From positions 1 to 59,546 of IMG/VR virus record IMGVR_UViG_3300042452_000420: a DNA stretch of 59,546 bases. The stretch is one strand, 5' to 3'. A model generated the notes under the pieces. That model saw nothing but the letters and a program-made list of their open reading frames with translations, was not told the DNA's origin and did not search any database. Made by a program: the position numbers and the translations under genes. This document shows, piece after piece, positions 22,351-30,188 of this stretch. Source of the stretch: a virus. Numbering within the stretch: the first letter of the stretch is position 1; the number at the start of each line of letters is the position of its first letter.

Positions 22351-22989
22351 ATGGGCATGCAAACGATAGCCGTCTTCCTCTCGGTTTTTGCAGAGGCATC
22401 CGCCGTGGGTGCCGATCTGGAGTACGTGCCTGGAATCTGGGCACCGCCTGCCTCTTATCCGGCCACTCTGCGGGATATCGCCGGCCGGCTTCCCGAGCGG
22501 ACGGACGCCCGAGATGCCGACCTGATTACCTACGCCCATGAAGGGAACCACTTCCTCTGCCGGGGTAAGCCTGGATACCACGGGGTGTACGTGGGGAACG
22601 GGCTGAGAATCTTCCTGCCCACCCCACCGCTCGTCACGGAGCGGGTGTTACTGGCCGTGCCCGAACACAAGCGCGGGACGATCTTCCAGACCTACATGAA
22701 CCAGGGCAGGACAGAGTACTGGGCTGCGCAGCCGCTGATGATCCTGGACGAATGGGCTGCGTACATCGCTGGATCGAAAACACGGGCGGAAAGTAAGGGT
22801 ATTCAGAGACGGGAAACAACCGTACACTGTGCGACATTCGCCGGATACGCTGCGGTTCTGTACGCCATGGCAAAGGACTGTCCAGGTTATCCGGCTGACG
22901 AACTCAGGACATTCTGTTTGTGGCAACTGGATCGCTGCAGGGAAGCCATCCCTGACTGGGATCAGTTGTCGGATGCGAAGTTTTACTAG
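22351..22989 (+). CDS. Exported HEXXH metallopeptidase-like protein
   Basis: A 212-residue protein. ATG 22351 follows CAGGGGC; the frame opens earlier, but the upstream part overlaps the previous gene. Residues 3-20 look like a signal peptide (MQTIAVFLSVFAEASAVGA). The zinc-site motif is HEGNH (63-67) in ITYAHEGNHFL, and DEWAAY near 133-138 offers a Glu as third ligand, as in gluzincins. The C-terminal part has CPGYPADELRTFCLWQLDRC, with cysteines that could form disulfides outside the cytoplasm. It probably cleaves envelope proteins. This is inferred from motif and export signal; the family is not identified. Confidence 0.55.
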   Translation: MGMQTIAVFLSVFAEASAVGADLEYVPGIWAPPASYPATLRDIAGRLPERTDARDADLITYAHEGNHFLCRGKPGYHGVYVGNGLRIFLPTPPLVTERVLLAVPEHKRGTIFQTYMNQGRTEYWAAQPLMILDEWAAYIAGSKTRAESKGIQRRETTVHCATFAGYAAVLYAMAKDCPGYPADELRTFCLWQLDRCREAIPDWDQLSDAKFY

Positions 22990-23338
22990 GCACTGGATGC
23001 CGACACGGTGTACCACCCACCGACCGCCAAGGCGCAAGCACAGCGACAAGGGTGAGCAAAACGCCGCAAGGCGTGGGGTATTGCCGGGTGTGCTGACGAC
23101 TCCGACCCGGACTGAGACTTGCCCCCGGAGCGAAGGATGTAAAGGCCGTGGACTCCGTAATCAACTACGCACGCCCGGTCCATGCAGCGCGGCTCCGCCG
23201 TTTGACATGCCCGCATACTGGCTCTTCGGAGTCGGTATGCGCGCTCACCACCGTTTGACGGTTTGAGTATCGCTTGCGTATACGCCCGTCCACCGTTACA
23301 ATCCCGGCCTACCTTGGAGGGTAGATCGGCTATGCAGG
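22990..23338 (+). promoter_or_regulatory. Regulatory gap: UUCG hairpin and candidate promoter
   Basis: There is no convincing gene in this 349-base gap. GCATACTGGCTC (23213-23224) pairs with GAGTCGGTATGC (23229-23240) across a TTCG tetraloop, giving a 12-pair stem with two G-U pairs. Downstream, TTGACG (23255-23260) and TATACG (23279-23284) are 18 bases apart and could be a sigma70-type promoter for the HNH-type gene at 23339. CCGTTTGAC occurs twice in the gap. GGAGGG at 23316-23321 lies far from ATG 23339. Confidence 0.4.
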
Positions 23339-23866
23339 ATGTACGCGGAAGCGACGAAGGTCTGCAGGGACTGCGGCAAGGAGTTGCCATTAAGCGCGTT
23401 CTACCTTGCCCCCCGTGGCGTACAAGGGGTTTCGTCTTACTGCAAACCTTGCGCCTGCAAGCGATCCTCCGCTAGCAGGATGACTCGTCGCGAACACTGC
23501 ATTGCTTATAGCCGGGCGTGGCATTTACGGCGGCGAGCGGAGCGACCATCCGAGGCGTTGTTTTCAGCAACGAAGCTGGGGGCTGCCAAGCGAAATATTT
23601 CTTTTGCGCTCACTCCGCAATGGTTCGCACGCAAGTTTGCTGCCAACAGGTGCGAATTAACTGGATTGGAATTTGACTATGGGAAACGGTCGCTGAGACT
23701 CCCATCCCCGGACAGGATCGACAGTAGCAAAGGGTACACCGAAGACAACACAAGGCTCATTTGCTGGGGATTAAATGCAATGAAAATGCACCACAGCGAA
23801 GAAGATTTCATTAAGTTCCTAAAAGACGCACACTCGGGCCTGAATGAACAAGCAAGAACGCATTGA
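23339..23866 (+). CDS. Zinc-finger HNH-type endonuclease
   Basis: A 175-residue protein from ATG 23339. The N-terminus has a zinc knuckle (CRDCGKELPLSAFY ... YCKPC, residues 9-38). The C-terminal half carries the phage HNH-type signature PSPDRIDSSKGYTEDNTRLI (residues about 122-141), followed by CWGLNAMKM. This pattern is shared with homing-type endonucleases whose DRI..GY...N segment contains the catalytic site. A candidate promoter lies just upstream. It overlaps the next HNH gene by 23 bases. Probably a homing endonuclease or a DNA-processing nuclease. Confidence 0.65.
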   Translation: MYAEATKVCRDCGKELPLSAFYLAPRGVQGVSSYCKPCACKRSSASRMTRREHCIAYSRAWHLRRRAERPSEALFSATKLGAAKRNISFALTPQWFARKFAANRCELTGLEFDYGKRSLRLPSPDRIDSSKGYTEDNTRLICWGLNAMKMHHSEEDFIKFLKDAHSGLNEQARTH

Positions 23867-24242
23867 TCTCCAGGCGTGGCTAGAAGAACACAGGTCATGC
23901 GCGGTGTGCTGGTGGCCGGAGTCCGATGGCCGACGGTGGCTGGAAGTACATCACTTGGTCGGAGGCGCCGGACGCAAGCACGACATCCGGCAGTACGTGC
24001 GTTTGTGCAACAACTGTCACACGGTGCTTCACTCAGGCACTTTTCTTACTGGACTCCCAGACCTGAACAAGGGTATACTTCTTGGCGTGAAGAAAGAATG
24101 TGACCCTTCCAACTACGATCCCGTGTTCCTCGCCTCGCTGAAACACAAGAAGCACCTGGGCTACGAACCGGAAGAGTTACCAGAAGCGTACAAGGAACAG
24201 CGCATCAGAAACGTAGGGCCATGGACGAGCCGAGAACCCTGA
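23844..24242 (+). CDS. HNH endonuclease
   Basis: A 132-residue protein. Cys pairs CAVCW (18-22) and CNNCH (55-59) frame a beta-beta-alpha HNH core: LEVHHLVGGAGRKHDIRQYV (residues 33-52), with His-35/His-36 as candidate catalytic and metal residues and a C-terminal CHTVLHSG. The rest is basic and helical. HNH genes near terminase genes can be packaging cofactors, but this one lies far from the terminase among other nucleases, so a homing or recombination role is more likely. Confidence 0.7.
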   Translation: MNKQERIDLQAWLEEHRSCAVCWWPESDGRRWLEVHHLVGGAGRKHDIRQYVRLCNNCHTVLHSGTFLTGLPDLNKGILLGVKKECDPSNYDPVFLASLKHKKHLGYEPEELPEAYKEQRIRNVGPWTSREP

Positions 24243-24601
24243 GTTGTGAGGTCATCAGGGTCACCCGTCCGAACACCCTGCTTATCCGTTCGATGTCAGA
24301 GATCATGCAGAGCTACGCTTCAACCTACCTGTGTCTCGCCGGAGTCCGCTGCAGGAAGTCGGCCATGCAGGACATCATCGACTGGCTGGAAATTCACGGC
24401 GACTTCGGCCGCTACGAACTCCTGCTCTTTGACTGGATGCGTGACTCCTACGGCCGGCTCTTGGGGAATGTCCTGGACCGCAAGACCGGCGAGGCCCTAA
24501 CCACCTACCTCATCCAGCGGGGCTCCGCCGTGGAGCGCCCGAACCACCTGGAGGAAGTTATGCAAGACCTCCTCTCCGCCCCGGAGCCCGACGAGCTATG
24601 A
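24221..24601 (+). CDS. Staphylococcal-nuclease-like (SNase) domain protein
   Basis: A 126-residue protein starting at ATG 24221 inside the end of the HNH gene. It has the OB-fold order of SNase: CEVIRVTRPNTLLIR at residues 9-23 (in place of the usual DGDT calcium loop), YLCLAGVRC around 36-44 and DSYGRLLGNVLD around 76-87, followed by TTYLIQRGSAVERP. The acidic catalytic loop is not obvious, so it may be a non-enzymatic SNase-fold protein. It is coupled by ATGA to the next gene. Confidence 0.5.
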   Translation: MDEPRTLSCEVIRVTRPNTLLIRSMSEIMQSYASTYLCLAGVRCRKSAMQDIIDWLEIHGDFGRYELLLFDWMRDSYGRLLGNVLDRKTGEALTTYLIQRGSAVERPNHLEEVMQDLLSAPEPDEL

Positions 24602-24840
24602 CAAGCGGCGGCTACTGGAAGACAACCAACTCCCAGATCACGGCCCACTGGCCATTGCAGGGAGGCTCGCGCGACTTCGGAATGTGGTCGCGGATCGGTG
24701 TGTGGATCAGTCAGAACGAGAAGGTTCTGAACAAGCGGACGCAGGACGAGGTCTGCAGGCTGGTGAGCGAACAATTCCCGGAGCTGGTGGAGGTGGAATC
24801 CAAGGACTACAGCGGCCGGCTGGCGAGGTGGCGCAAATGA
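24598..24840 (+). CDS. Hypothetical small protein
   Basis: An 80-residue protein in ATGA overlap with the SNase-like gene and in ATGA overlap with the resolvase-like gene downstream. It is Trp-rich (WKTT, HWPLQGG, MWSRIGVW, ARWRK) with a helical middle (RTQDEVCRLVSEQFPELVEV). I recognise no family. Its place between two nucleic-acid enzymes suggests co-expression in DNA metabolism. Confidence 0.45.
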   Translation: MTSGGYWKTTNSQITAHWPLQGGSRDFGMWSRIGVWISQNEKVLNKRTQDEVCRLVSEQFPELVEVESKDYSGRLARWRK

Positions 24841-25247
24841 TCCACGGCCGCCAGAAGGGAGCCCGCGGAGAACGCAGCGCCGCCCAGGCGTGGGCAGAAG
24901 CTCTCGGCCTAGACCCGGCCGCCTGTCGCAGAGGCCAGCAATTTGCGGGTGGAACAGATTCCCCGGATGTTGTTCAGCCGTTGCGGGACATCCACCTAGA
25001 GGTGAAGCGCGTGGAGGCTGGCAACCCGTACCGCTGGTTGGAGCAGGCGGTGCGTGATGCTGGTGGGAAAATCCCACTCGTCCTCCACAGGCGGAACCGC
25101 AAGGACTGGATCGCGATAGTGAGGCTAGACGATGTCCAACGACTCGCGGAGACGATTGCTGCGCAAACTAAAACGCTGGGCGGAGGAGCGGTTTCCGGTC
25201 CTGTTCCCGGTGAGGGTGTACCTCCGGCCAAAGAACCGAATGTCTGA
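24837..25247 (+). CDS. Holliday-junction-resolvase-like PD-(D/E)XK protein
   Basis: A 136-residue protein from ATG 24837 (ATGA overlap). The motif order is that of small resolvase-type nucleases: KGARGERSAAQAWAEALGL with Glu-12, TDSPDVV with Asp-44, LEVKRVE with Glu-55 and Lys-57, then WLEQAVRDAGGKIPLVLHRR with Gln-70 and a WIAIVRLDD strand. These are the conserved E, D, ExK and Q positions of the archaeal-Hjc/phage resolvase superfamily. It probably cuts branched recombination or replication intermediates. The last 38 residues overlap the next gene in another frame. Confidence 0.7.
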   Translation: MIHGRQKGARGERSAAQAWAEALGLDPAACRRGQQFAGGTDSPDVVQPLRDIHLEVKRVEAGNPYRWLEQAVRDAGGKIPLVLHRRNRKDWIAIVRLDDVQRLAETIAAQTKTLGGGAVSGPVPGEGVPPAKEPNV

Positions 25248-25476
25248 GATGCTGGGCTACTTCTGCATGGACGACGATTGTGAGCGAGGAACGATTGGAA
25301 TCCTGGATAGTTTGAACCACGGCGAAATCATTGACACCTTTTTTGAGGAGTGGGCCCACGCGCGGTGTGCCCATCTCCTAGACACGGAGGACCACGACGA
25401 TGACCCCGACCACCACCCTACGTTCTGGAGTGAGTACGGAAGACTCGTCAAAGCCGGTCGCGGTGTGGCATGGTGA
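25132..25476 (+). CDS. Degenerate HEXXH-type metallopeptidase-like protein
   Basis: A 114-residue protein with GAGG before ATG 25132, overlapping the resolvase-like gene by 116 bases. Residues about 50-110 read IGILDSLNHGEIIDTFFEEW, then AHARCAHLL and, after an acidic stretch, HHPTFWSEYGRL. The layout recalls small SprT-like or WLM-like metallopeptidases, in which HEWAH binds zinc. Here the first His is replaced (EEWAH), so activity is doubtful. It may be a protein-binding relic or use another zinc arrangement. Confidence 0.4.
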   Translation: MSNDSRRRLLRKLKRWAEERFPVLFPVRVYLRPKNRMSEMLGYFCMDDDCERGTIGILDSLNHGEIIDTFFEEWAHARCAHLLDTEDHDDDPDHHPTFWSEYGRLVKAGRGVAW

Positions 25477-25759
25477 CGATCCCTACGCGGAAGTCACCGA
25501 CCTCATCCATGACCTCATGCTGCGAAAGAGCGGTTACTACGGCAACCCAGATGACGGTCCACTCTGCAATGCCTTGGGGGTGGAGGCTGACGGCATCGAA
25601 CCGTGGCGCTACCAACTGGCCAGAATTGGCGAGAAATGCAGGCGTCTGCGAGGCGAAGCCCAGCATGACGAGCATTTACTTAGAGAGACTCTGATCGACA
25701 TCGCCGGCCATGCGGTGGTCGCCCTGGCCTGCTTAAACCACAAAGCGAGAAACCCATGA
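25400..25759 (+). CDS. Conserved phage protein, DUF6378/MazG-like
   Basis: A 119-residue protein with GGAGG upstream of ATG 25400. Residues 25-75 (DDPYAEVTDLIHDLMLRKSG, YYGNP and the YQLARIGEKCRRL helix) and the ETLIDIAGHAVVALACL helix at the end match a widespread phage protein type, built around a MazG-like helical core, that accompanies nucleotide metabolism genes. Naming it DUF6378 is from memory of that pattern and is not certain. No catalytic Glu cluster typical of active MazG is obvious. It overlaps both neighbours. Confidence 0.45.
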   Translation: MTPTTTLRSGVSTEDSSKPVAVWHGDDPYAEVTDLIHDLMLRKSGYYGNPDDGPLCNALGVEADGIEPWRYQLARIGEKCRRLRGEAQHDEHLLRETLIDIAGHAVVALACLNHKARNP

Positions 25760-26115
25760 ACCTGAAGGTCCTGAAGTGGCTGTTGGCCCACCGTGAAGCC
25801 CTGGTCCAGATCGTTGAGATTGCCAAGGGGTACAACAAGACGCTGTCTTTCGTGAAGCAGTGGGAGATCGTAGACCGCATCGCGCGGATCGTGATCCCCG
25901 TACTGGAAGCAGAGTCGGTTTCCCCGCGGGCGCTTTCGGACGACGGGTTCTACATCCTGTCGAACATGGATGACGACAACCGCGAGGTCGAACTGCTTGC
26001 CGCCGGGGCCACGGTGGTGGCGCTGGGCATCGACTGGAAGATCATCGTTGATACGGTGCTGCCGATCATCCTTGCGATCCTGAAGGCCCTGCTGAAGGAC
26101 GATTCAGAGGAGTGA
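25756..26115 (+). CDS. Putative membrane-active protein before the subtilisin gene
   Basis: A 119-residue protein in ATGA overlap with the previous gene. The N-terminal half is helical and basic (LKVLKWLLAHREALVQIVEI). The C-terminal third has a hydrophobic amphipathic helix (WKIIVDTVLPIILAILKALL, residues 94-113) and an acidic end. It could insert into or bind a membrane and is a possible holin-type or pore protein. It is directly coupled by GTGA to the subtilisin gene, which supports a shared job in envelope breakdown. Confidence 0.4.
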   Translation: MNLKVLKWLLAHREALVQIVEIAKGYNKTLSFVKQWEIVDRIARIVIPVLEAESVSPRALSDDGFYILSNMDDDNREVELLAAGATVVALGIDWKIIVDTVLPIILAILKALLKDDSEE

Positions 26116-27050
26116 GCTACGTTCACCTTCCGCCCTACCGGGTGACAGCGCATCCACTCGCCGCCAAAAGCGACGGGGTTGACTGGGGCGTTGCTTCATA
26201 CGGGATCCCCGCCCTGTGGAAGAAATGGCAGGGCGAAGGCGTGACGGTGGCGGTGGTCGATAGCGGAGTCGCCAAGCACTACGCGCTGGACGATGTGGTG
26301 GTTGACTACCGCAACTTCACCAGCGATAGCGATCTCTACGACACCATCGGGCATGGCACGCACTGCGCCGGGGTGATCGGCGCCAAGGCCGGCAATGCGA
26401 AGGGCATCGCACCCAAGTGCAAGATCCACTCGCTCAAAGTCCTGGGCCACAGCGGGATGGGATCGAACGACGCGGTGGCGGAGGCTGTCCGCTACGCCAC
26501 AGAGATCAAATGCGACATCATCTCCATGTCGCTTGGTTCCTCCCGGCCGGACGATCACTTGCATCAGGCGATCAAAGCCGCACATGAGGCTGGCATCATC
26601 GTAGTCTGCGCCGCCGGCAACGACGGGGGGGCAGTCAACTACCCCGCTGCGTTCTTGGAAACTATCGGCGTCGGTGCGGTGGACAAGAGCGGTCAGGTGT
26701 GCGAGTTCTCCAGCCGTGGCAAGGAGATCGTCGTTGCTGCGCCGGGTGCGGATATCACAAGCACATGGTTGAGCAACGGCTACGCAACCATCTCCGGCAC
26801 GAGCATGGCTGCACCGTTCGTTGCCGGGGTTCTCGCCCTGTACATCTCTGCCGCCAAGCACGACGGCGAGAAGGTGACGCACAGGACCGTGATCGACGCC
26901 CTGTCACGCACATGCAAGGACGCAGGCGTGGAAGGGCATGACGATGTATACGGCTGGGGATTGCTGGATCCTCACAGGTTGCTCACCTACGACATTAAGG
27001 CCACGCCCAATGGCATCACCATCTTCATTCCCGGGGGGAAAATACTTTGA
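26112..27050 (+). CDS. Subtilisin-like serine peptidase (family S8)
   Basis: A 312-residue protein with a GTG start in GTGA overlap. All catalytic elements are present: Asp-50 in VAVVDSGV, His-81 in GHGTHCAG, the oxyanion Asn-170 in CAAGND, and the nucleophile Ser-231 in GTSMAAP. There is no signal peptide and no I9 prodomain; only about 40 residues precede the catalytic core, so it is made in mature form in the cytoplasm. It would need a pore to reach the envelope. Its neighbours are membrane or secreted small proteins and a papain-like peptidase. A lysis role is inferred; virion maturation or host takeover are alternatives. Confidence 0.85.
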   Translation: MSYVHLPPYRVTAHPLAAKSDGVDWGVASYGIPALWKKWQGEGVTVAVVDSGVAKHYALDDVVVDYRNFTSDSDLYDTIGHGTHCAGVIGAKAGNAKGIAPKCKIHSLKVLGHSGMGSNDAVAEAVRYATEIKCDIISMSLGSSRPDDHLHQAIKAAHEAGIIVVCAAGNDGGAVNYPAAFLETIGVGAVDKSGQVCEFSSRGKEIVVAAPGADITSTWLSNGYATISGTSMAAPFVAGVLALYISAAKHDGEKVTHRTVIDALSRTCKDAGVEGHDDVYGWGLLDPHRLLTYDIKATPNGITIFIPGGKIL

Positions 27051-27250
27051 CAACCTACCAGATCGTCGGCATCGCAGCCGTCCTGGCCGTGGCGGCATGG
27101 CAGTACGTGCCATGGGCAAAGCTCCCGACCCGGAAGCCATCTTCCCTGAAGGATATCGCAGCGGTTATCGCGATTCGCGATACGCACGCAGCGCCGGAGA
27201 TCCGCAAGGCGTGCAACGATCTGTTGCGCGTCCTCTTGGATACAAAATGA
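27047..27250 (+). CDS. Small single-span membrane protein
   Basis: A 67-residue protein starting with TTG 27047, preceded by a GGGGGGAAAA purine run and overlapping the subtilisin stop. Residues 5-22 are hydrophobic (QIVGIAAVLAVAAWQYVPW). The rest is a short polar helix (PEIRKACNDLLRVLL). Its size and topology fit a holin, antiholin or inner-membrane spanin subunit. It is coupled to the exported protein that follows. Confidence 0.5.
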   Translation: MTTYQIVGIAAVLAVAAWQYVPWAKLPTRKPSSLKDIAAVIAIRDTHAAPEIRKACNDLLRVLLDTK

Positions 27251-27645
27251 AACACCTCCCCCTCGCCATCGCCTGTCTGTTCCTTGCCCTGACCTTCATC
27301 CCACCACAGCCACGGGCCACCGGCCCCGTCGCAACAGCCCTGCAGTCGGCATCCTCCTCCGACCGGGCGACCATCGCCGCCACTTACCGCGCGTTGGCCG
27401 ATGTCGTGCGACGAGATGCCGGCCGGCGGATCACCACCACTGGTGTCTGGCGCGCCGTCTACCAGGACGCGCTGGCCCTGGCTGTGGGCGGGACGGAGCT
27501 TGTGGGTAAGTACCCCGGATTGGACAAGGCCGTGGAAGAAGTGCTGGGCGAGTACTACACGCTGGACGATGTCGCCATCGATCCCGACCTCTCCCAGAAG
27601 ATCGGCACCGCCTGCGTAGAAGTGGCGAGGCAAAGTGGCGGGTGA
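27247..27645 (+). CDS. Exported helical protein with signal peptide
   Basis: A 132-residue protein from ATG 27247 in ATGA overlap. It has a clear signal peptide (MKHLPLAIACLFLALTFIPP, likely cut near residue 27). The mature part is helical: SSSDRATIAATYRALADVV, a WRAVYQDALALAVGG helix and an ACVEVARQ end. No lipobox is visible. It resembles helical exported partners found with phage lysis and peptidase genes, but I cannot name a family. The periplasmic location is an inference from the signal. Confidence 0.5.
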   Translation: MKHLPLAIACLFLALTFIPPQPRATGPVATALQSASSSDRATIAATYRALADVVRRDAGRRITTTGVWRAVYQDALALAVGGTELVGKYPGLDKAVEEVLGEYYTLDDVAIDPDLSQKIGTACVEVARQSGG

Positions 27646-28309
27646 CGCGAAACGCTGCACTACGTGCAGGGCACTGCTGCCGGTGACCAGCTTCAGCCCG
27701 TGCAGGAATGGGCTGCAATCGTCCTGTCGCGCATGCCGCAACGCTCTTTCTCGGCAACTTGCGAACACGCCGTGCGTGGAGTCTCAGACATGCAGCGCGT
27801 GCAAAACCACAAAAGGTGCGGGCGAGTTTAATCGAAGTCGCCGCAACAAGTCTGGCTTACAAGCGGAATGCAAGGCATGTACAAGGGCCAGAAAGCGCAG
27901 AGTGCAATACGCAGTCACGCTAAACGAAAAGTATTGCCCAGATTGCGCTCGCACGCTTCCTGCGCACGAGTTCCCAAGAGATAAGAAGCGAGTCGGCGGC
28001 CTGCGTGGGGAATGCCGGGAGTGCAGCGCAATTAAGAACGCAGCTTCGATATACAAGATTCCCGTGGAGCTAGCGAGAGAATTGCGCAATCGCTCGCATT
28101 GCGACCTGTGCGGAGCGGAGTACAAGAACTCTTTGGATGTGAACATCGACCACTGCCACGCCTCCGGTTCTGTGCGGGGTGCGATCTGCACATGCTGCAA
28201 CCTCATGCTTGGAGGTGCGCGCGACTGCCCAGAGATCCTCATGCAGGCGGTCAGGTATTTGCGCGGGGCTGGAACGTGGCGTCGAAGGCTGGAGGTGATC
28301 CGTGCCTGA
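27635..28309 (+). CDS. Recombination endonuclease VII-like nuclease with zinc knuckles
   Basis: A 224-residue protein with a GTG start after GAGG. Three tandem CxxC...CxxC knuckles occupy residues 8-34, 53-81 and 100-127 (CTTC/CRAC, CSAC/CKAC, CPDC/CREC). The C-terminal domain is endonuclease VII-like: CDLCGAEYKNSLDVNIDHCH, then GSVRGAICTCCNLMLGGARD, with the catalytic DHCH and four zinc Cys. Such enzymes resolve branched DNA or act as mobile nucleases. It sits inside the peptidase cassette, so insertion as a homing element is possible. Confidence 0.75.
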   Translation: MAGDAKRCTTCRALLPVTSFSPCRNGLQSSCRACRNALSRQLANTPCVESQTCSACKTTKGAGEFNRSRRNKSGLQAECKACTRARKRRVQYAVTLNEKYCPDCARTLPAHEFPRDKKRVGGLRGECRECSAIKNAASIYKIPVELARELRNRSHCDLCGAEYKNSLDVNIDHCHASGSVRGAICTCCNLMLGGARDCPEILMQAVRYLRGAGTWRRRLEVIRA

Positions 28310-29267
28310 CGACCGCTACGAACTGGACACCCCGTACTCTCTGCTGAACGCCTACCAGAACCAAGGCATGGTGGGGTGGATCGACTCTCCGCGCGACCGC
28401 GTTCTTTTCGGTGAGTCGCAGTTCAAACCTGTGTACCAAGAGGGGAACACTGCTGGCAGCGGCATCGGCCAGCGAGCCCTGCTGTGGCCGTATGCCATAG
28501 CCTTGGACAAACTTTCATACACAGAGCGGCAGACGGAACCCGACTGCACATCGCACGCCTCGCGCAACGCCAGAGACACAAGCCGTGCGGTACAGATTCT
28601 TGTGTCCAAAGAGCCGGAACAGTTCGTCCTGCGTGGTGCGACAGAACCAACGTACGGCGCTCGCGGCCACGCTGGCGCCGGCATGTCGCCAGCCCGTGCC
28701 GCCATGTTTGAGAACGTCACGGGGTTCCTGATCCGCAAGGACTACGGGATCGTAGACCTGACAACATACACCGGCTCCATCGGCGCCCGCTGGGGCAGGG
28801 GCGGGGTGCCGCAGGATGTGCAGAAGCTCTGCAACAACAACAAGGTCGGCATCATTCGCCAGATTCGCAGCATCAATGATGCACGAGATGCGCTGTTCAA
28901 CGGCTACGCCCTCATGTCTGGGCAGCATGCAGCATGGTCGCCGTCCCCAGCCGACGATCACTACCACAAGCGAGTGAGCCCAGGCTGGAACCACGCGATG
29001 GCCACCGTAGGGATGGACTTCACAAAGAAGTTCTGGCCGTTCAATGTCTTCTTTATCCAGAACAGCTGGGGCCCGTGGAATCAGAAGCCTCGCGAATGGC
29101 CGCAAGACTACCCGCCGTGGGTTCCGGGGATGATCGTCTGCCGAGAAGAAGACTGGTCCGTGTGCGTGGAGAGCGAGGACTGCTATGCCTACGGATCAGT
29201 GGACGGTTTCCCTCCCCAGCGTTTGCCCGACTTCGGAACCATAGGGATGTTGCACCGTGGTGAGTAG
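28302..29267 (+). CDS. Papain-like cysteine peptidase (C1 type)
   Basis: A 321-residue protein with a superb GGAGGTGATCC site directly before GTG 28302. The papain elements are in order: Gln-77 with nucleophile Cys-82 in PDCTSHASRNA, His-231 in GWNHAMATVGMD, and Asn-254 in FIQNSWGPWN. No signal peptide is seen, and about 75 residues precede the active-site Cys. Cytoplasmic synthesis then release, or virion incorporation, are both possible. It lies between an EndoVII-like gene and a secreted Cys-rich protein. With the subtilisin and HEXXH genes nearby, it forms an unusual multi-class peptidase set. Confidence 0.75.
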   Translation: MPDDRYELDTPYSLLNAYQNQGMVGWIDSPRDRVLFGESQFKPVYQEGNTAGSGIGQRALLWPYAIALDKLSYTERQTEPDCTSHASRNARDTSRAVQILVSKEPEQFVLRGATEPTYGARGHAGAGMSPARAAMFENVTGFLIRKDYGIVDLTTYTGSIGARWGRGGVPQDVQKLCNNNKVGIIRQIRSINDARDALFNGYALMSGQHAAWSPSPADDHYHKRVSPGWNHAMATVGMDFTKKFWPFNVFFIQNSWGPWNQKPREWPQDYPPWVPGMIVCREEDWSVCVESEDCYAYGSVDGFPPQRLPDFGTIGMLHRGE

Positions 29268-29517
29268 TTTCCTCTGGCTCTTCATCCCGCTGAACCTCGT
29301 CCCCGCCGTGGGCGTGAATGCTGCCTACTCCATCCACGCCACGCCATCGGTGGTAGTGCCGGCAGAATGCTGCGGTCGCTGCCAGAACGGCGTGATCAAA
29401 CACGGTGACGGGCACACCACTCCCTGCCCCTGCCCATCCGACTGCAAGTGCAAGGCGAAGACCTTGGTTCACGAACCCATCTGCATCACAGGCTCATGCC
29501 AGAAGCAAACCAAGTAG
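29257..29517 (+). CDS. Secreted cysteine-rich small protein
   Basis: An 86-residue protein with a GTG start at 29257 overlapping the peptidase gene by 11 bases. The N-terminus is signal-like (SSFLWLFIPLNLVPAVGVNA). The mature part holds nine cysteines in CCGRC, PCPCPSDCKCK, ICITGSC and an HGDGHTTP loop, so a disulfide-stabilised or metal-binding exported peptide is likely. The pattern reminds me of planctomycete small proteins. It may protect, tether or regulate the neighbouring peptidase. Confidence 0.55.
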   Translation: MVSSFLWLFIPLNLVPAVGVNAAYSIHATPSVVVPAECCGRCQNGVIKHGDGHTTPCPCPSDCKCKAKTLVHEPICITGSCQKQTK

Positions 29518-29810
29518 CACAGTGGTGCCTGGAGTCAACAGGCACAAAGAAGTATGGGGCCAAAGCAGAGAAGGTTGCGCTCATCGCCATCATGCTGCTG
29601 CCCGATTGGGAAGTTGATCTGCCCGCCTACAAGCGACAGGTCCGACAGGAATGCTGGCGGCGCAAGGATCATTTCGGGTCGGTGTTCCTGATCTTCATAC
29701 TCCCCCTCATCGTCAACGTCATCGCAGCCTGGATAGCCAAATGGTTAGTAAACCGAACCCAAGGTTCACCTTTACGGAAGATCAGGGGCCAAGCGTTCGA
29801 CGCCCTGTGA
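29496..29810 (+). CDS. Small membrane protein
   Basis: A 104-residue protein. ATG 29496 is used; the open frame extends upstream within the previous gene. Residues 1-45 are polar with several Cys and Lys (CLESTGTKKYGAKAEKVALI). A membrane span follows at about 62-85 (VFLIFILPLIVNVIAAWIAK). The C-terminus is basic. It belongs to a chain of overlapping small genes after the papain-like peptidase. A holin-like or spanin-like role is possible but unsupported by a family match. Confidence 0.45.
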   Translation: MPEANQVAQWCLESTGTKKYGAKAEKVALIAIMLLPDWEVDLPAYKRQVRQECWRRKDHFGSVFLIFILPLIVNVIAAWIAKWLVNRTQGSPLRKIRGQAFDAL

Positions 29811-29977
29811 TCCGCCTGACCTGCGCCTACCAAGGCGAAGCACACATGTACGTGTTCTCCCCCGACGAAGCATTCGATGCCGCGAAGATTATCACGCGGC
29901 ATGTCATGGAGGGACGCCTGCACCCGGCTGCAGGCATGGTTCTGTGTCAAATGATTGAGGGGGAAGATGATGGCTGA
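29741..29977 (+). CDS. Hypothetical small protein
   Basis: A 78-residue protein from ATG 29741, overlapping the previous gene by 70 bases. The sequence is soluble: a beta start (RPVIRLTCAYQGEAHMYVF) and then a helix (DEAFDAAKIITRHVMEG) and an acidic end. There is no known domain. The large overlap with the preceding frame makes the start uncertain; a later start is possible. Confidence 0.4.
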   Translation: MVSKPNPRFTFTEDQGPSVRRPVIRLTCAYQGEAHMYVFSPDEAFDAAKIITRHVMEGRLHPAAGMVLCQMIEGEDDG

Positions 29978-30188
29978 ACTGTGGATGGTGGGGCTGACCG
30001 TCGCTGCGGCGGTGGTCCCGTGGGCGATGTCGATCCATGCCAAGGTGGCGGTGATTGCCAAGTCGGTGGAGGAACTACCAGCACTTGTGAAGGAACTCCG
30101 CGAAACCCTGGAAGAGCATGAGGTTCGACTGGATCGGCATGACGAAGAGATCAAAGCTATCAAAGACAAAGCAACGGCTGGTAGTTGA
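29970..30188 (+). CDS. Membrane-anchored coiled-coil protein (holin/spanin candidate)
   Basis: A 72-residue protein; GAGGGGGA stands upstream of ATG 29970 (29967 is an alternative). Residues 3-21 form one hydrophobic span (LWMVGLTVAAAVVPWAM). Residues 24-70 are a continuous charged coiled coil (ELPALVKELRETLEEHEVRL, DRHDEEIKAIKDK). This anchor-plus-coil layout occurs in phage class-III holins and inner-membrane spanins. It is the last membrane gene of the peptidase cassette and overlaps the sigma-like gene. Confidence 0.5.
   Translation: MAELWMVGLTVAAAVVPWAMSIHAKVAVIAKSVEELPALVKELRETLEEHEVRLDRHDEEIKAIKDKATAGS

Follow-up and report, generated by a model that had tools for sequence, protein, structure and literature searches.

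Holin-endolysin cassettes such as lambda S-R-Rz join an enzyme to small membrane proteins, with the lambda lysis genes placed just before terminase, and in SAR (signal-arrest-release) endolysins the enzyme is membrane-anchored. Among archaeal viruses, PeiW and PeiP (cited in PMC10318531) are pseudomurein endoisopeptidases, cysteine peptidases that open a non-murein wall. A gene cassette in IMG/VR virus record IMGVR_UViG_3300042452_000420 (59,546 bases, analysed at full length and referred to as the window) resembles the lambda-type and SAR systems in combining an enzyme with small membrane proteins, in its position just before terminase in several relatives, and in that the enzyme exists in un-exported and anchored forms. 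It differs from them in using a protease of papain fold, in the presence of extra exported helical and Cys-rich partners, and in that searches gave no muramidase, amidase or transglycosylase. The likeness to PeiW/PeiP, drawn by description only, is that of a viral cysteine peptidase facing a non-murein wall; family and substrate are different. From sequence and fold modelling we moderately favour the reading that the cassette serves lysis, with a papain-type cysteine protease standing in place of the endolysin and cutting a protein-rich wall. Lysis itself is the probable function of the cassette, and for protein as the substrate of the papain-like enzyme the case appears evenly balanced.

The planctomycete wall is protein-rich, with Cys-rich YTV proteins, and most Planctomycetales have no peptidoglycan synthesis genes (PMC8567305); in P. 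limnophila, most genes of this pathway are non-essential (PMC10632474). How phages open planctomycetes, with a protein-rich wall and peptidoglycan disputed for decades, seems to be unaddressed, and no paper on a planctomycete-phage lysis system was found in the literature searched, outside which most subscription journals lie. The cassette makes this question testable, and its proteases may dissolve protein walls.

The papain-like enzyme

The product of the central gene (28302) matches nothing in Pfam, PHROG or NCBIfam (Peptidase_C1, PF00112, gives no match at E 0.1), and a phmmer sequence search against PDB returned nothing useful. Its AlphaFold model (pLDDT, the model confidence score, 88) aligns with Xylellain (3ois; VIA Z 21.2, 231 residues, root-mean-square deviation 2.9) and with procathepsins and pro-papain (VIA Z 18-20), at 9-17% identity to papain-family C1A structures, and its N-terminal stretch aligns with the proregion. 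Across an alignment of 64 relatives Q77, C82 and H231 do not vary, and N254-SWG is conserved in at least 90%. By model and alignment the product has a papain fold with an intact catalytic centre, in agreement with the earlier note, a model's reading of the window's letters, which had named a papain-like enzyme here. Compared with papain-family C1A enzymes (Xylellain, cathepsin B, papain; Cwp84 of the Clostridioides difficile S-layer), the fold of ~230 residues, the Q-C-H-N centre, the NSWG motif and the proregion-like N-terminus are shared, whereas the window enzyme is phage-encoded, lies below Pfam detection and sits within a fixed cassette. No relative was found among 50,697 deposited phages. 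An eight-homologue alignment, used as query, identified relatives on 504 viral contigs, and the gene may be a marker for planctomycete viruses.

The same enzyme could instead act on peptidoglycan, as a peptidase within a lysis cassette that cuts peptide cross-links rather than wall protein; it would then be an endolysin with a novel sequence. Papain-superfamily endolysins (CHAP, NlpC/P60) are known (PMC10318531), some of the distant papain-fold viral proteins matched by structure carry the names muramidase, peptidoglycan-binding or endolysin, and planctomycetes contain at least some peptidoglycan according to reference 48 as cited in PMC10632474. However, the fold and the Q-C-H-N/NSWG centre fit C1A proteases and not CHAP or NlpC/P60, no cell-wall-binding domain is seen on the 28302 product, and the absence of peptidoglycan synthesis genes from most Planctomycetales also speaks against it; we regard this alternative as unlikely.

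The window enzyme carries no export signal, and the earlier note's view that this fits pore-dependent release holds for the window phage. The view does not extend to chromosomal relatives (see below), of which 8 of 13 bear a hydrophobic anchor or signal at the N-terminus, versus none of 57 viral papains.

Three papain relatives (L053 / G001 (P0001), L082 and L085) carry an intein exactly at catalytic C82; inteins favour conserved active sites. At L095:6699-7523, a papain-like match is broken by one in-frame stop codon, for which a pseudogene, a sequencing error and recoding are all candidates.

A conserved core in several genome backgrounds

Comparative analysis covered 85 loci, namely the best 80 of the 504 viral contigs, four loci in bacterial genome assemblies and the window. 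The conserved core consists of the papain-like enzyme, the exported helical protein, the Cys-rich protein and small membrane proteins (Table 1). The helical gene ends directly upstream of the papain gene in 41 of 57 non-redundant loci (it may lie downstream in the marine group), and in 45 of 56 the papain gene is followed at once by the Cys-rich gene. As the arrangement recurs in 85 loci, it is far beyond chance. Papain and membrane genes are conserved together, as opposed to the non-conserved cargo that the earlier note had named beforehand as evidence against lysis; all of the genes it listed are present where it had placed them, including the one-span proteins at 27047, 29496 and 29970.

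The genome backgrounds carrying the core are several and unrelated: a clade of ~60-kb phages, large phages, marine phages and single loci such as L126. The large phages encode ribonucleotide reductase, PhoH- and RecA-like proteins (assigned by reading translations), and their cassette lies near structural genes. In the marine phages a two-span, holin-sized protein (fam487, no family match) adjoins the papain gene.

Table 1 Cassette and neighbouring genes in the window
Feature	Position	Strand	Evidence and occurrence
Papain-like cysteine peptidase; proposed lysis enzyme	28302..29267	+	Fold model; Q77, C82, H231, N254; intein sites
Exported helical protein, core	27247..27645	+	fam41, 81/85 loci
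Secreted Cys-rich protein (CxxCxxG...HGDG...CxC), core	29257..29517	+	64 + 13 loci, two clusters
Membrane protein, one span, small helical domain	27047..27250	+	fam42, 41 loci; layout resembles fam434 of large phages
Helical protein, single C-terminal membrane span	29496..29810	+	fam51, 36 loci; hydropathy
Small conserved open reading frame, 43 amino acids, starting MYVFSPDE	29846..29977	+	fam53, 41 loci
Holin/XhlA-like candidate, one span and a coiled coil	29970..30188	+	PF24073, phrog_1296 and XhlA matches
Endonuclease VII-type gene within the cassette	27635..28309	+	PF02945, E 8.9e-16
Subtilisin, intracellular type, N-terminal LPPYRV segment; clade-specific	26112..27050	+	PF00082, E 1.6e-52
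Helical protein with C-terminal hydrophobic segment, kept in the ~60-kb clade	25756..26115	+	42 loci; hydropathy; without family
Member of an EE[WY][AS]H family, no standard HEXXH peptidase	25132..25476	+	Motif in all 37 members listed
Exported HEXXH protein, probable zincin; accessory rather than core	22351..22989	+	Motif conservation; 13 loci

Cassettes on planctomycete chromosomes

The papain cassette is linked to planctomycete chromosomes. Of 392 Planctomycetota genomes, 12 encode relatives of the enzyme, the centre metagenome-assembled genome (MAG) not counted; they do so at 13 places, 10 of which lie on contigs 0.88 to 7.8 Mb long. Further copies are present in assemblies named Pirellulaceae and Planctomycetaceae. 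Profile hidden Markov models built from the viral families place the helical gene directly upstream of seven of the 13 papain genes (E 7e-11 to 1e-3). Three of the 13 are followed downstream by the Cys-rich gene (E down to 2e-11), and a fam487 homologue is found upstream of one (E 4.8e-8). In five chromosomal elements the terminase large subunit gene starts 1.9 to 3.3 kb past the start of the papain match; these terminases are of three unrelated types (Terminase_6N, gpA and TerL). Exported CPxC (thioredoxin-type) proteins are encoded beside the papain gene in four elements (L146:7715-8275, minus strand; L147:9661-10185; L148:9610-10182; L149:8023-8556, minus strand), and the L146 protein, the one tested of the four, matches Pfam Thioredoxin_7 (E 7.5e-8). 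Genes flanking one chromosomal element include DUF1559-type pre-pilin-like proteins, which are common in planctomycetes. A link of the cassette to planctomycetes, the host suggested in the earlier note, is supported by these genomes and by the host genes flanking one element; that the free phages, the window phage included, infect planctomycetes is inferred from the chromosomal relatives and from MAG co-binning.

The G352 chromosome (~3,659-3,686 kb; L146, L177-L180) carries a compact element of ~27 kb with host genes on its flanks. It contains the cassette with terminase, portal, capsid and tail-like genes, no integrase having been noticed, and L147 and L148 are similar; the element could be a defective prophage or gene-transfer-agent-like.

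Papain relatives also occur on two contigs (C7 and C13) of a SAR202 MAG (G013) and on a contig assigned to Synechococcus (L125). A SAR202 host (L127) is unlikely, none of 300 genomes of its phylum giving a match apart from the MAG itself, and so is a Synechococcus host, cyanobacterial genomes giving only weak partial matches (the cyanobacterial search profile was more sensitive than the planctomycete one, and the two are not directly comparable). These are probably misbinned phage contigs.

Proposed lysis genes and mechanism

Peptidoglycan hydrolase families are missing from the Pfam matches listed for the 77 open reading frames of the window (family scans in alignment mode give the best 25 of 27 and the best 25 of 29 families), and five of them (PF01510, Amidase_2; PF01464, SLT; PF00959, Phage_lysozyme; PF01551, M23; PF13539, M15_4) were found in none of 30 cassette-carrying records, of which 20 are near full length for their clade and some are fragments. 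The absence of a conventional endolysin noted earlier therefore stands within this scope. As for a holin, the 29970 product matches PF24073 (DUF7365; E 4.4e-6, 27.2 bits with a cut-off of 27), phrog_1296 labelled 'holin' (E 8.7e-6) and XhlA (E 0.014).

A late module that modifies the envelope or blocks superinfection, in which an exported protease and its partners cleave surface receptors with no part in lysis, would agree with cassette components being exported or anchored and with their placement among late or structural genes. It would leave unexplained why no second lysis enzyme can be recognised in the 30 records and why the free phages do not export theirs, and seems improbable.

In the lysis reading that we prefer, small membrane proteins would open the inner membrane late in infection, and the window papain would reach the envelope through these lesions; in many chromosomal relatives the enzyme's own N-terminal anchor would tether it, like export-tethered endolysins. 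Un-anchored viral and anchored chromosomal papains show the same split as holin-released and anchored endolysins. The lytic names carried by some distant papain-fold viral proteins also count in favour of a lysis role. The papain would cleave protein components of the wall, which in many planctomycetes contains much protein, Cys-rich YTV-domain proteins among it, and little or no peptidoglycan. Disulfides or metal may be handled by the Cys-rich partner, in whose place some prophages have an exported thioredoxin-like protein. A wall of this kind would be expected to call for a protease and for partners with reducing or metal-binding functions. The helical partner is possibly an inhibitor or guide, and the subtilisin would be a helper within the ~60-kb clade. 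We further propose, tentatively and with less than even confidence, that this is a distinct lysis strategy, in which phages of protein-walled bacteria kill by wall proteolysis, possibly together with disulfide handling by a Cys-rich or thioredoxin-like partner, and the module is swapped among unrelated tailed-phage lineages and chromosomal elements.

Several observations weigh against the lysis reading. Marine loci L107 and L115 have neither helical nor Cys-rich partners nearby. The holin assignments are weak, and the window cassette does not adjoin terminase (51926). Divergent hydrolases may escape Pfam, since Pfam missed the window papain too. Some peptidoglycan is present in planctomycetes (Jeske 2015, as cited in PMC10632474), and the host of the free phages comes from co-binning and chromosomal relatives rather than from isolates. 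In L126, the capsid and cement genes flank the core, making a virion link possible. Together with the position of the large-phage cassettes near structural genes, this would fit peptidases that act as virion or maturation proteases (prohead protease, or an injected envelope-opening enzyme). Such a role is highly improbable, however, given the membrane anchor or signal on 8 of the 13 chromosomal papains, the export of the partners and the placement of the cassette upstream of terminase in several elements.

Subtilisin and HEXXH-type proteins

The earlier note had described four peptidase classes as a single system. This picture was rejected, as the subtilisin is clade-specific, only some members of that clade have the HEXXH gene, and the 25132 product is not a peptidase by its motif; what remains is one universal protease with clade-specific helpers.

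The subtilisin itself is complete, as previously read: its product scores 179 bits with PF00082 (cut-off 21.8), and the triad (D50, H81 and the GTSMAAP serine) is intact and present in relatives. Its closest PDB relatives are intracellular subtilisins (2wv7, 7y6m), which share the S8 domain and triad, lack a signal peptide and have a LIPY-like N-terminal segment, the alignment beginning at RLIPYEV; the window protein differs in being encoded by a phage gene kept with the cassette in a single clade. In intracellular subtilisins the LIPY segment blocks the active site until it is cleaved. LPPYRV of the window protein sits at the same position and is probably self-blocking. In the ~60-kb clade all 38 loci have the gene; of 33 loci elsewhere, none does. 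In Moorella phage MTATph1 the neighbours of the subtilisin gene are replication genes rather than lysis genes, so that a subtilisin by itself is uninformative on lysis. An intein interrupts the L056 subtilisin gene at GHG/THC, beside the catalytic His.

In the exported protein encoded at 22351, ~5 kb upstream, H63, E64, H67 and a downstream E134 (HEXXH plus a third-ligand Glu) are invariant in 12 relatives, which supports the HEXXH protein recognised earlier. The 13 loci with this gene belong to the ~60-kb clade. Its confident model has no significant Foldseek match in PDB (best VIA Z 4.8). The description of the 25132 product as a degenerate HEXXH protein has to be revised: Glu occupies the first motif position in all listed family members and is therefore a family trait, marking neither a decayed HEXXH nor a standard zincin. 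Pfam, PHROG and NCBIfam give no match for this protein.

Genome context and other features

Besides the cassette, the window contains genes for a P22-like portal, terminase, a tyrosine integrase and recombination functions; a similar portal was found in no deposited phage. Record G007 (99.98-100% identity to the window) runs from the window end into its start via 74 additional bases. The genome is therefore circular or permuted. The window represents an essentially complete phage genome of ~59.6 kb.

The endonuclease VII-type gene directly before the papain gene has a weak counterpart, or none, at the same place in most relatives; it is probably not a functional part of the cassette and looks like a homing-type insertion. 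One 117.8-kb record, IMGVR_UViG_3300049595_001870 (L048, L080), contains two differing cassettes at about twice the normal genome size, and probably represents two phages fused into a single record.

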